Source: an uncultured Shewanella sp.
GTDB taxonomy: Bacteria > Pseudomonadota > Gammaproteobacteria > Enterobacterales > Shewanellaceae
DNA: 64,000 nucleotides
Assembly (NCBI RefSeq): GCF_947501225.1
Contig: NZ_CANMUW010000003.1
Span: 310,001-374,000 of the forward strand
Reading direction: 5' to 3'
A model generated the notes under the pieces. That model was not told where the DNA came from and did not search any database. It was given only the letters and a program-made list of their open reading frames with translations. The position numbers and the translations under genes were made by a program. Shown piece after piece: positions 49,133-53,341 of this stretch (position 1 is the stretch's first letter; every line of letters begins with the position of its first letter).

Positions 49133-49873
49133 ATGAAAAAACAAGATATCACCTTTGGTATTCACGCTGTCGAAGCGGTACTAAAACACAGCCCCGAGCG
49201 TGTCATCGAGCTTTGGATACTCCAGGGCCGTGATGATCAGCGTCTGACCCCGATCCTGGAGATCGCGGCGCAGTATGGTGTATCGGTACAGCAGGCGTCA
49301 CGAAAAGTGTTAGATGATAAGTCGGGCAGTGGCCAGCACCAAGGTGTGTTAGCACGCGTCAAAGCTGTCAAGCAACTTAATGATAATGATCTGGCCGCAT
49401 TGGTAGAGAAGACGCAGACGCCTTTCCTGCTGATCTTAGATGGGGTAACAGACCCGCATAACCTGGGTGCCTGTCTGCGTAATGCCGATGCCGCCGGCGT
49501 GCATGGTGTCATCGTTCCACGTGATAACTCTGTAGGCCTGACACCAACGGTCAGCAAGGTTGCCTGCGGCGCCGCAGAAGTGGTGCCACTGTTTCAGGTG
49601 ACAAACCTGGCGCGCACCATGAAGAGTCTGCAGGAGAAGGGCGTATGGATTGTCGGTGCCGCCGGTGAAGCCGAGCACGATCTCTATAAGGCCGATCTTA
49701 AAGGCTCTCTGGCGATTGCCATGGGAGCCGAAGACAAGGGACTACGCCGTTTGACCCGCGAGAGCTGCGATTCACTGGCCTCGATTCCTATGTCAGGCTC
49801 TGTGTCCAGTCTGAACGTCTCGGTCGCAACCGGTATCTGCCTGTTTGAGGCTGTACGACAAAGAATAGGATAA
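49133..49873 (+). CDS. rlmB: 23S rRNA (guanosine-2'-O)-methyltransferase RlmB
   Basis: A 246-aa SPOUT methyltransferase that modifies G2251 of 23S rRNA in E. coli. It starts [20 protein letters not shown]; the SPOUT knot motifs are [34 protein letters not shown], and [22 protein letters not shown]. Co-transcribed with rnr. Confidence 0.95.
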
Positions 49874-50069: not shown

Positions 50070-50420
50070 GGTTATGAATAGCCTGCGGCTCGCTTATGTG
50101 CAGATGCTTCTTCGGGACGGTGAATAGAAACCAGAGGTTTCTGTGCTTATGAACGAGAGGGCGAATATGGTGAAAACCATTTGCTATGAACGTGAGACAA
50201 GGATGTTGAGCTGGCATTTATGCAGGAAGCAATTGGATGCCGAACTGGCTTTTAGATATGTATATCGTTGTGGACCCTTCCTTGGGCGCTCTGCGATTTC
50301 AAACTACCTCCCTGTTTAACTGCCAGTTCGATATCCCTATCTCTCGGTCGGAGAGTTTCACCTTGTGAAACCTCGCCATGCCATCAACGTCCGTGGCCGC
50401 ATCTACACCTAGATATTCAA
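50070..50420 (+). repeat. Dispersed intergenic repeat, copy B
   Basis: This occupies most of a 780-base gap. The first part (50077-50105) is an exact 29-base match to the reverse complement of 17882-17910. The later part (about 50280-50415) resembles copy A at 16.9-17.06 kb. It thus unites copies A and C as parts of one element type. No transposase gene is seen. Confidence 0.68.
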
Positions 50421-50657
50421 AAGAAGAGTTCCTATCTTCGATTTAGCTTTATTCATTTCTTAGTTAAGCCTTATGCAGACCTCATAAACCCCGATGCATA
50501 TTTTTATCGGACAGTTCTGAGTGTTTTTATTAACGAAATGAAAAATAACTTTTTTGCAGCAATGAGTTGTAGATGATAGCTTTACCTAACTGAAAACGCG
50601 GCCAAGAGTATTATCGTGCTGCTATTGAATAAGCCGTTATTCGTCTAGGAGGCATCG

Positions 50658-50909
50658 GTGTTTTTTGAAATCTTTATGTTGGCTTATTTTCCAATAGGTA
50701 CATTTTGCTTGAACAAGTGGCGAAAGCGCATCTATACATCAAGTCGTGAACGAAGAGGTTTGTATCTATTAGTTTCGATTATCATGGCTGCAGTGCCATT
50801 TATTTACGTTAGTAGTATTCAAGTAGAACGTACCGCTTTAGGTGTTGTACTTGTAGGTATTGGCTTGTTCTGGTTTGCTATTGTAGGTTCTCGTAGTTCA
50901 GTCACATAA
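50658..50909 (+). CDS. Small membrane protein, orphan, in attC-like cassette 1
   Basis: An 83-aa protein with three hydrophobic stretches (about 3-18, 35-51 and 60-77) and a basic loop KWRKRIYTSSRERRG. The GTG start at 50658 is supported by a perfect AGGAGG 5 bases upstream. I recognise no family. The gene is more AT-rich than its neighbours, and an imperfect palindrome resembling an integron attC site begins at its stop codon. It is probably a mobile cassette gene. Confidence 0.6.
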   Translation: MFFEIFMLAYFPIGTFCLNKWRKRIYTSSRERRGLYLLVSIIMAAVPFIYVSSIQVERTALGVVLVGIGLFWFAIVGSRSSVT

Positions 50910-51000
50910 CAAGATAATAAGTAAGGATAAAAAGGAGTTGGCTGTTTTCGTTTCTTAATATTCTAGCTAACAATTTTTTGCCCATTATTAGAGCTTATAA
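50906..51000 (+). repeat. attC-like imperfect palindrome 1
   Basis: Begins ATAACAAG at the stop codon of the preceding gene and ends AGCTTATAA. Opposed segments pair: GTTGGCT (50937-50943) with AGCTAAC (50965-50971) at one mismatch; AAAAA with TTTTT; ATAATA with TATTA. This is the layout of VCR/superintegron-type attC sites, and the core text resembles ones I recall from Vibrio and Shewanella cassettes. The terminal GTTRRRY core is degenerate. Confidence 0.5.
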
Positions 51001-51016
51001 ACCATAGGGAAGTGTC

Positions 51017-51364
51017 GTGAAAAAATTTTTTATTAGTGCAATACTCGTACTTAGTTCTAGCGTATCAGCCAACGCATATAAGAGTGAATTTGTTGATGTT
51101 TCCATTCAAATTCAAGAAGGTAAAGAAAGTTTCAGGCTCGTTTGTCAACCCAAAGTGCCTGTAGGGGAGCTACCCAAAAATTGGGTTAGCTCTTGTAATG
51201 ATATTGGCAAGAAGCTTTTGGAGTTAGCTGTCGACAAAGGAATGAAAGTAGCATTAATTGACAAAGTATTTGGTATGGCTGGTGATTTTGCTCAAAAAGC
51301 TTCTAGTGAGCTACCAAAGAATATAGTCCCCAAACAAATTGTTAGCCGGGAGTTTGGAGGTTAA
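51017..51364 (+). CDS. Small secreted protein, orphan, in attC-like cassette 2
   Basis: A 115-aa protein with a signal peptide (KKFFISAILVLSSSVSANA), so periplasmic or exported. The mature part has two Cys (CQPKVPVGELPKNW and SSCNDIGKK) that could form a disulphide, and ends KQIVSREFGG. No family recognised. GTG start at 51017, preceded by AGGGAAG. AT-rich. A second attC-like palindrome begins 5 bases after its stop. Confidence 0.58.
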   Translation: MKKFFISAILVLSSSVSANAYKSEFVDVSIQIQEGKESFRLVCQPKVPVGELPKNWVSSCNDIGKKLLELAVDKGMKVALIDKVFGMAGDFAQKASSELPKNIVPKQIVSREFGG

Positions 51365-51369
51365 CGGTT

Positions 51370-51460
51370 TATAACAAGGCAATTAAATAGCGGACTCGTA
51401 ACAGTAAGATCGATTCCGTTTCGCTTCACATCTTAACCAACTATTACTGCGGAGTTACCG
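51370..51460 (+). repeat. attC-like imperfect palindrome 2
   Basis: Starts TATAACAAGGCAATTAAAT and ends GCGGAGTTACCG. Pairing: ACTC with GAGT, CAGTAA (before 51418) with TTACTG (51445-51450), AAGAT with ATCTT. It shares the start ATAACAAG, the central TTTCGCTT/GTTTC block and the AAC..TATT segment with palindrome 1. Strongly reminiscent of integron attC sites; the 3' core is degenerate. Confidence 0.55.
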
Positions 51461-51710
51461 GATATTCGATTGCCATATTTTTCCTAATCTAAATCTCACG
51501 GGCTAGAGGAAAAGCTCTAACGTAGGTTTGTCCCAAAATGAGTTGTAACAGAAGACTTTAAATCTAAAAGACAAACACTTAGATATAAACGCGGCTGTGA
51601 CTACTCATCGTATTGATACATCCTTTTGCAGTCTCTGCTATGTCACCTACTGGTGAACATGGCATCTGTAGCTATTTAGATGCTGCCAAATCGAAGAGGT
51701 AGAATATCGA

Positions 51711-51800
51711 GTGTAAGTGGACTCGAGGACTTCGATTTCAGGGATGAAATCGTAGAGCGCCCATGGAAGGGTTTACAGCGTGACGAGAGGGCACTTACAC
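51711..51800. repeat. Small inverted-repeat element D
   Basis: Ends GTGTAAGTG (51711-51719) and CACTTACAC (51792-51800) are exact complements. Inside is a perfect hairpin, CGATTTC-agggat-GAAATCG (51733-51752), followed by CCATGGAAGGG. The same hairpin-plus-CCATGGA style occurs in copy A near 16.88-16.92 kb. The rest of the 580-base gap has no gene. Confidence 0.55.
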
Positions 51801-51943: not shown

Positions 51944-52708
51944 TTACTGGAATGTGTAGAGTAAGTTGAAGGTGGTTATCGTGTCTGTCTGCTTGGTGCC
52001 TTCGGGAACCACATCTGTGTACTTGACGTTGACCCCTATCTTGAAGGCCCAGTCCTGGAACAGGGTGTTCTTGTAGTTCATGTCTAAGGTGAGGGTGCTG
52101 TTGTCTTCACCGGCTTCGGCGGTGAGGTCGGCATTGAGACTGGTGTACTCCTGAAGCTTCTGCTCGAACTTTATCGCGGTACGTAGGATCACGTCTCTGT
52201 TGGCTTCGGGATCGGGTTCGGCGTCTGTCTCTATCGGCATGTTATAGCGGTAACCGGGGCCGACTTCCAGACTGAGTTTGGTGCTGTGATCGGATATGGC
52301 ATCGAAACCATAACCGGTCGATACGGTCGATATCTGAGTGTAACTACCGAAGCGATCTATGGTGAAGTCGCCGCGACCGAAGACATAACCTCCCCCCAAG
52401 TAGGCGGTATCATTGTCGAGCTTGTAACTGGACTGGATCTGAATGTCGTACTTCTCTGAGGTGGTTTTTTCATCATCTGCCGCAAAGTAGGCCTTTACCG
52501 TCCCCTCCTGCTTCATCTTCTTCGTATCGTAGACGAGTTTAGTTCTGCCATTAAAGCTTGTGGAGTCGGTGTTACCGGTATTGAGTTGAAAGCCCGCTTC
52601 TACTTCGGCGGTAAAGTCACTTGGTGGCTCTTGATAATCCGGTGGAACTAAGGCCTGGGCCGACATAGGGAGTGTTAAAAAAAGTGCTGCTATGGCTCTA
52701 AACATCAT
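51944..52708 (-). CDS. DUF481 outer-membrane beta-barrel protein
   Basis: A 254-aa exported protein of the DUF481 (YdiY, salt-induced outer-membrane protein) family. The signal peptide ends at SAQA. Repeated amphipathic strands of barrel type follow, for example EVEAGFQLNTGNTDSTSFNGR near the start and SLEVGPGYRYN in the middle. The C-terminus FNLLYTFQ is close to the aromatic ending used for outer-membrane insertion. Function unknown. Stands between the accessory patch and the rpsF operon, divergent from it. Confidence 0.82.
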   Translation of the reverse strand: MMFRAIAALFLTLPMSAQALVPPDYQEPPSDFTAEVEAGFQLNTGNTDSTSFNGRTKLVYDTKKMKQEGTVKAYFAADDEKTTSEKYDIQIQSSYKLDNDTAYLGGGYVFGRGDFTIDRFGSYTQISTVSTGYGFDAISDHSTKLSLEVGPGYRYNMPIETDAEPDPEANRDVILRTAIKFEQKLQEYTSLNADLTAEAGEDNSTLTLDMNYKNTLFQDWAFKIGVNVKYTDVVPEGTKQTDTITTFNLLYTFQ

Positions 52709-52839: not shown

Positions 52840-52875
52840 TCCGCGGCTTAAATCAGTCACTTTATTTAGTTCCTT

Positions 52876-52910
52876 GCCTCTATTTGGTCTGACTGAGCCA
52901 ACAACGAGGC
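52876..52910 (+). promoter_or_regulatory. Leader hairpin before rpsF
   Basis: GCCTC (52876-52880) pairs with GAGGC (52906-52910), with an inner TTTGG/CCAA helix. An ACCG follows before the ribosome site. The S6:S18 complex is known to bind its own leader through a structured CCG-bearing element in many bacteria. This hairpin is a candidate, not proven to fit that model. Confidence 0.35.
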
Positions 52911-52933
52911 TAGATAACCGTAAGGAGCAAAAA

Positions 52934-53341
52934 ATGCGTCATTATGAAATCGTATTTTTGGTTCACCCTGATCAGAGTGAACAAGTACCTGGTATGATTG
53001 AGCGTTACACGGGTATTCTTACCCAAGCTGGCGGTCAGATCCACCGTTTAGAAGATTGGGGCCGTCGTCAACTGGCTTACCCAATTATCGAACTGCACAA
53101 GGCTCACTATGTTCTTATGAACGTAGAAGCAACTGCGGAGTCGGTTGAAGAGCTAGAAACAGCTTTCCGTTTCAACGACGCTGTTCTGCGTAGCATGGTT
53201 ATGCGTACTAAAGCTGCCATCACTGAAGCATCTCCAATGGCTAAAGCGAAAGACGAGCGTGATTCACGTCGTTCTAGCGAAGGCGAGCGTCGTAGTGCGC
53301 CTGCTGAAGCAACTGAAGAAGTTAAAGAATCAGCTGAGTAA
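52934..53341 (+). CDS. rpsF: 30S ribosomal protein S6
   Basis: A 135-aa protein. The ATG at 52934 follows AAGGAG and gives [20 protein letters not shown]. The core [14 protein letters not shown] is diagnostic. The C-terminus is a charged, Glu/Ser-rich tail ([20 protein letters not shown]), the region RimK extends with glutamates in E. coli. First gene of the operon, 8 bases before priB. Confidence 0.96.

Follow-up and report, generated by a model that had tools for sequence, protein, structure and literature searches.

A Decayed Cassette Array at One of Eleven Dispersed attI Copies in a Shewanella Genome without a Detected Integron Integrase

The block of small genes between rlmB and rpsF in an uncultured Shewanella sp. 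is probably a two-cassette array docked at a stray copy of an integron attI site, one of 11 in the genome, and would have been loaded in trans by an integrase since lost. The block lies in a 64,000-nucleotide stretch of DNA (the window) from genome G000, a draft assembly in 76 contigs with a completeness rating of 100%, and was compared across 97 genomes of the genus Shewanella, G000 counted in. With a GC content of about 0.36-0.40, against about 0.5 in the adjoining genes, it is AT-rich. The original prediction, made from the sequence alone, had proposed an integrase-less, decayed cassette array of the CALIN type at this place, and this reading is supported; the array is, however, no isolated leftover, as it stands at one of the attI copies dispersed through G000. 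The features are collected in Table 1.

Table 1. Features of the rlmB-rpsF block, in window positions; R1, R2 and R3 are the models described in the text.
Feature	Position	Strand	Remarks
rlmB	49133-49873	+	Left neighbour; name from the original prediction and by eye
Left inverted-repeat end (IRL)	50373-50457	+	R3, C3:360373-360457, 68.7 bits, E 1.4e-18; one of 14 R3 training rows
attI copy (integron docking site), 176 nt	50465-50640	+	R2 128 bits, E 7.3e-37; own copy among the 35 training rows
Cassette 1, crossover to crossover	50637-50994	+	Gene and start region 83-84% identical in G011, G085
Cassette gene 1, orphan protein, 83 aa	50658-50909	+	Membrane-like by eye
attC 1, decayed	50904-51000	+	R1 63 bits, E 7.5e-13
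Cassette 2, crossover to crossover	50995-51454	+	Gene 71-76% identical in G076, Aeromonas caviae
Cassette gene 2, orphan protein, 115 aa	51017-51364	+	Signal-peptide-like start by eye
attC 2, decayed	51369-51460	+	R1 39 bits, E 5.3e-7; aligned with copies in L040, L041, L042
Right inverted-repeat end (IRR)	51685-51747	-	R3, C3:361685-361747, 27.9 bits, E 7.6e-6
DUF481 gene	51944-52708	-	Right neighbour, ahead of rpsF (rpsF named from the original prediction and by eye)

Results

Both small open reading frames claimed at this locus are present, and a palindrome-like stretch lies directly 3' of each. A covariance model (R1) was built here from 57 attC of congeners, with the window and the rlmB-rpsF loci left out; an iterated profile search had gathered 77 sites at the inclusion threshold, of which 57 were aligned. 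Over the 64-kb window, R1 gave exactly two matches up to E = 10, namely attC 1 and attC 2, which bears out the two palindromes both in their places and in their identity as attC. The pairing of their arms as a free fold did not stand, since the energies of the bottom strand were no better than those of shuffles (-1.8 kcal/mol, z +1.8 for attC 1; -7.8 kcal/mol, z -0.6 for attC 2). Intact relatives folded on the same strand reached -15 (L033, z -3.1), -17 (L039, z -4.3), -17 (L040, z -3.1) and -13.1 kcal/mol (L042, z -1.4), and for three further relatives in the fold comparison the top strand was folded. Given these folds, chance was excluded through homology and covariation instead. Compensatory changes were found in 11 of the 15 predicted R1 pairs (57 attC), with the hairpin structure kept at the family level. 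By blastn across the 97 genomes, palindrome 1 has matches adjoining integron integrase genes (among them 88% in G038:C13 and 86% in G028:C5), attC 1 being 83-88% identical to attC of intI-bearing arrays of other species, and palindrome 2 has matches of 83-86% in G038, G025 and G023. Judged by homology and covariation, and not by their own fold, both palindromes are real attC. The family is widespread in the genus, 96 of the 97 genomes being hit by R1 at least once at E <= 0.01 among the matches listed (41 candidates scored per genome).

Both sites are decayed members of this family and are predicted to be inactive. The degenerate core that had been claimed is confirmed for attC 1, which reads GAGC-TTA where intact relatives have GGGCGTTA, the G of the core GTT being gone; attC 2 keeps GTT, and about 14 nt are missing from its 3' arm. 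An Rfam search returned no attC family match, and a core-plus-arm attC pattern search was set aside as too insensitive and strand-blind. An Rfam match to the RpsF leader at 52853-52936, ahead of rpsF, scored 31.3 bits, below the family cut-off of 37.

The two genes are integron cassettes with relatives elsewhere, as indicated by sequence comparison. Relatives of gene 1 in G011 and G085 lie at other loci, each opening with GTTATGTGTCT.GG, and in G011 a relative of attC 1 comes next too. The gene 1 protein had 20 matches, the named ones from Shewanella (3), Neptunomonas and Pseudoalteromonas, while the gene 2 protein had 41 including the window's own, with Aeromonas accounting for eight of the nine named ones (76% identity in Aeromonas caviae; 71% in G076). 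By eye, the Aeromonas caviae gene has the end of one attC upstream and TAACAAGGC downstream; R1 found no attC at this locus or behind the G076 relative. No family above the cut-off was found for either gene in Pfam, and nothing above the cut-off in PADLOC. Pairwise dN/dS came to 0.17-0.21 in three pairs of gene 1 and to 0.20 in two pairs of gene 2, so that both genes appear to be under purifying selection, at least across their wider history. The attI copy together with the cassettes (50462-51470) had no match among phages.

A fragment before gene 1, GCCGTTAT, had been taken as the possible end of a third attC. The fragment is real, but it is the 3' end of a 176-nt attI copy and not of an attC. 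A sequence model of attI (R2) was built from 35 copies, seven of them from G000, and the predicted crossover of the window copy lies between G50636 and T50637. Relatives of this copy in G014, G027, G028 and G038 stand between intI and the first cassette. Among the matches listed, an R2 match in the right orientation lies 170-184 nt from an intI match in at least eight genomes (G014:C5, G027:C137, G028:C13 and G038:C13, which are R2 training rows, and G054:C11, G080:C3, G086:C1 and G090:C12); in G018 and G088 it lies farther from a partial intI match, giving 10 genomes at a looser spacing. As R2 thus adjoins intI in only eight (10 at the looser spacing) of the 55 genomes with intI over the cut-off, among the matches listed, other integrase types must have other attI. 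Homology upstream of attI reaches what we take to be a LexA-like box, and in G028 it runs for 674 nt at 97.8%, into intI itself. At the other end, homology between attI copies stops at GTTA, model position 177-178, with few exceptions among the matches listed. The consensus fold of attI has no consensus pairs, as would be expected if, as described, attI is used double-stranded (PMC11023631). The spacing beside intI, the unfolded sequence and the end of homology between G and TT together identify the stretch as an attI copy. An earlier candidate, in which 50462-50640 was an ORF-less cassette (many copies start GTTATGC), was dropped because homology at intI loci continues upstream into the presumed LexA-like box. 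No match to the attI copy (50462-50642) was found among plasmids. Other integrons lead one to expect a promoter within attI; a simple sigma-70-like promoter scan of 50350-51600 found none, the mean for shuffles being 3.4.

The claim that the block is without an integrase agrees with the whole-genome search, in which no match to TIGR02249 in the draft G000 exceeds the integron-integrase cut-off (best 5.6e-22), although an integrase could lie in a contig gap. Across the genus the cut-off is exceeded in 55 of the 97 genomes, and every one of the 97 as well as each of 14 controls has weak matches. In G000, the cognate-type IntI of G028 has three matches of at most 46 bits, which is at the level of Xer only. 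The block accordingly has no functional intI next to attI, as a complete integron has, and does have the two attC (by the R1 model built here) and the missing integrase by which a CALIN is recognized. Remnants of intI were not detected in G000 despite its 11 attI. Elsewhere, at a locus designated f, residues 1-28 of the cognate intI are left in G011, 168 nt from attI, and residues 1-31 in G062, 174 nt from attI; a second copy in G028 (C2) retains residues 2-94 at 173 nt. This spacing of 168-174 nt is that of full integrons. A full intI is present in G062 too; it belongs to a different type, shares 42% identity with the cognate one and has no R2 match next to it. This clade seems to have lost the cognate integrase, and that loss would account for the decayed state of the attC in the window.

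Copies of attI are dispersed through the genus. At E <= 0.001, R2 found at least one copy in 53 of the 97 genomes, G000 counted, with a maximum of at least 20 in G088 (27 candidates scored per genome); four of the 11 copies in G000 are outside the R2 training rows. Across the order, R2 matched seven of 197 genomes at E <= 1e-4, all Shewanella (one of 79 genera), and the exact attI core pattern occurred in 17 stretches among 84,980 species, again all Shewanella, so that the attI family appears confined to this genus.

Thirty-eight stray copies, with no full intI beside them, were read; they were picked from blastn matches and are not a random sample. The GTT core is in place in 34 and is damaged or missing in L050, L123, L135 and L136. 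Behind 36 of the 38 stray attI, an open reading frame of 60 aa or more begins on the same strand no farther than 78 nt away (distances were counted from where the profile match ends, short of the crossover in L123, L135 and L136), compared with one of 38 in the divergent direction. Random positions have an ORF start within 150 nt in 48% of cases, which makes them a weak control; the informative parts are therefore the divergent control and the short distances. An attC of at least 25 bits follows on the same strand within 2 kb at 20 of the 38 copies, 13 reaching at least 40 bits and seven only 26-38 bits, and none lies upstream or on the other strand, apart from eight dropped shadow rows of strong sites. 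The stray arrays are short, with 0-3 attC found within 2 kb. At the 18 copies without such an attC, about 1 kb or less of contig remains in four cases (L050, L139, L140, L145). In G000, 17 attC matches (two at E 0.012-0.015) form 11 clusters, five of them headed by attI (the window, C1:153046, C11, C25 and a divergent one at C1:45897); attI was not detected at the other six.

Some stray copies have features of their own. L150 and L152 (G028) carry the identical CTTGACCTGCGG... directly after GTT, a shared ORF-less first piece with no ORF start within 150 nt. L154 (G027) is 98% identical to the intI-linked attI and begins inside the LexA-like box, and an ORF piece just upstream presumably represents the end of an IS1595-type transposase. 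Downstream of the stray attI of L118 (G000:C2), two ORFs on the minus strand (160-1152 and 1225-1545) have the same first 60 residues; they may encode a REP-type, repeat-associated transposase, but no Pfam family matches the longer one. L147, L148 and L040 (G038) and L151 and L152 (G028) are stray attI of another subfamily, which by eye have in common an upstream stretch of about 120 nt or longer, distinct from the intI leader. A second kind of copied unit thus seems to exist around the other-subfamily attI of G038 and G028.

Stray attI loci have flanking genes in common across species, which allows the sequences behind orthologous copies to be compared. At locus a (L120 in G000, L124 in G062, L130 in G011), the alignment extends from the left flank through attI to the crossover region, in two collinear pieces for L120/L124 and one unbroken piece for the other two pairs. 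The alignments break 9 nt (L120/L124), 3 nt (L120/L130) and 15-17 nt (L124/L130) after the crossover G; beyond the break, 805-848, 805-1633 and 845-1630 nt, in the same pair order, have no blastn or tblastx match, and the right flank then resumes at 88-90%. These three pairs are not mutually independent. At locus f (G011, G062), the break comes 4 nt after the G and the right flank is 92% identical, with short attC pieces only between. At locus b (G000, G062), where G000 has a damaged core, the break precedes the G of G062 by 2 nt; the right flank is 90% identical, and nothing is shared between the flanks of the two genomes. In all five genome pairs at the three orthologous loci, then, the alignment breaks within a span from 2 nt ahead of the crossover G to 17 nt past it, the genes between have no match at two loci (four pairs), and the right flanks resume at 88-92%, a pattern which suggests that cassettes were exchanged in place. 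As attI copies share about 175 nt, homologous recombination between stray attI could leave a similar break, and the break alone is no proof of an integrase. The breaks at the crossover are strong, if not final, evidence for integrase action. The locus a region of G028, where an attI of another subfamily lies about 1.2 kb from the shared flank, was not counted, since the different subfamily and the greater distance make an independent insertion possible. A tree of 42 attI copies had low resolution; copies group by locus at d and f and not at b, c and e, and the G062 copy of locus a stands apart from those of G000 and G011.

The rlmB-rpsF interval varies in a similar way among relatives, and the block is not fixed core DNA; given the R1 hits as well, neither of the two outcomes named in the original prediction as refuting it was observed. 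G092 has attI at the same place, followed by a 285-aa ORF; the aligned stretch stops 4 nt past the G, and a single match of 44 nt lies farther on. In this genome the left flank does not align continuously, and R1 detects no attC. G094 has two attC (72 and 27 bits) with two different ORFs, G013 has one R1 match (30 bits, E 1.9e-4), and G051 and G058 have one doubtful match each (E 0.017 and 0.17). Among the 18 relatives scanned with R1 at this locus, the 14 others had none at E <= 0.5.

The window unit has inverted ends on both sides, detected with a repeat-end model (R3) built from 14 left-end rows, right ends not being used. The same repeat end of 80-90 nt lies directly 5' of 15 of the 22 oriented stray attI (G000, G062, G011 and a few relatives), although 14 of these 15 ends trained the profile. 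A complementary end follows downstream in nine of the 22 (E <= 0.01, within 2.2 kb), and no copy in the other orientation was found downstream of these attI. R3 has 48 matches in G000 as a whole; with pairing by eye, seven of the 11 attC clusters of G000 lie between a plus and a minus end, and three more have one end. Most attI copies in this clade sit within such inverted-repeat-bounded units, whose neighbouring genes are, by eye, mostly convergent. At rlmB-rpsF, pairs of inverted ends with different cargo are present in 12 of 19 relatives, so that the repeats are more widely spread than the cassettes. In place of cassettes, the G011 unit at this locus has an ORF of 631 aa (L051 1332-3227) whose CxxCH motifs give it, by eye, the look of a multiheme cytochrome. 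Four units of G000 have no attC or attI match (C1:227731-228770, C1:461939-463278, C3:327012-327835, C15:16827-17630); their small ORFs may be other cargo or fully decayed cassettes.

Discussion

The arrangement in G000 would amount to a distributed integron, in which one trans-acting integrase serves many attI and has here been lost. A stray attI would accept circular cassettes through attC x attI recombination between G and TT, as an ordinary attI does. Each stray attI would take its own first cassette, so that many cassettes would stand together in the usually expressed first position. After loss of the cognate integrase, the attC would decay with the genes intact. For the genus at large, we lean slightly towards the view that one integrase serves a dozen or more attI at conserved intergenic loci and provides many expressed first cassettes, and that the scattered CALINs and SALINs are largely loaded attI and not debris.

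Alternatively, the stray loci might be former complete integrons from which intI was deleted, which would make the block an ordinary decayed CALIN with nothing acting in trans. Degradation of integrons has been put forward as the origin of integrase-less arrays (PMC9024848, PMC11023631), CALINs among them (PMC9024848), and the intI remnants beside attI at G028:C2 and at locus f of G011 and G062, as well as the start of L154 within the LexA-like box, point in this direction. However, G000 has eleven attI and no detected remnant, and many stray copies of the clade share one left junction to the inverted-repeat end, which makes them look like copies of an already intI-less element. The shortness of the stray arrays and the different genes found between species at the same attI also argue against deletion, which we consider unlikely as a general origin.

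It is quite unlikely that attI and the genes are cargo of an inverted-repeat-bounded, MITE-like element and were swapped not by an integrase but by transposition or by homologous recombination between attI copies or repeat ends. The inverted ends that flank seven of the 11 attC clusters of G000 fully and three more on one side are in keeping with such cargo, as are the rlmB-rpsF ends with different contents in 12 of 19 relatives, including the non-cassette 631-aa ORF of G011, and recombination inside attI would also break near the crossover. Yet the left break falls at the crossover and not at the repeat end in five of five pairs, and the stretches compared at orthologous loci are only 78-87% identical. 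Insertion of the cassettes at chance genomic attG-type sites is very improbable for this block. IntI reportedly uses attG sites of bacterial genomes for cassette insertion (cited in PMC12444791, PMC12901181), but the recipient here is a 176-nt element of an intI-linked attI family and not a short core; such insertion could hold for the six of 11 attC clusters of G000 without a detected attI.

Loading of stray attI by a trans-acting integrase would depart from the way in which integrons are described, namely as one attI beside one intI with the first cassettes alone expressed (PMC9024848, PMC11023631). The standard program is stated to detect no attI outside class 1 (PMC9024848), and the same arrangement could therefore be overlooked in other genera. 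In the literature searched, which covered few subscription papers, none of the titles and abstracts listed reported dispersed attI. Should stray attI act as docking sites, a single genome would offer many first positions, and the recurrence of integrase-less cassettes at conserved loci would become testable through the attI ahead of them.

Among known systems, the closest are the CALINs and 115 single attC reported for Shewanella in 2022 (PMC9229058). Like the block, these CALINs and SALINs, clustered and single attC without an integron integrase, are described as attC with orphan ORFs, scattered over the genome far from intI; the window array differs in being headed by an attI copy. In that paper attI comes up five times in the main text, with regard to the intI-linked site, a figure and a reference, and never for a stray copy. 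The CALINs of Xanthomonas are likewise integrase-less arrays at loci that recur across species, and CALINs are said there to be mobilisable in trans, while attI is not given in that account as the reason for the recurrence (PMC12444791). In Acinetobacter, integron material also lies between inverted-repeat elements, but as MITE-flanked class 1 integrons (PMC10969869), whereas the Shewanella units are intI-less attI in many chromosomal copies. Delta-attI-type cassettes, in which stray attI pieces recombine, bear a likeness to the stray attI of Shewanella; those pieces are mostly 14-18 nt and replace attC in mobile integrons (PMC12901181), in contrast to whole attI at separate loci here. The sedentary chromosomal integron of Shewanella (intI-attI-array) has the same attI and attC families as the block, with one attI and intI there, compared with many attI and no intI in G000. 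CALINs in Shewanella are thus already known, and the larger finding here is the dispersed, loaded attI, a variant of the integron.
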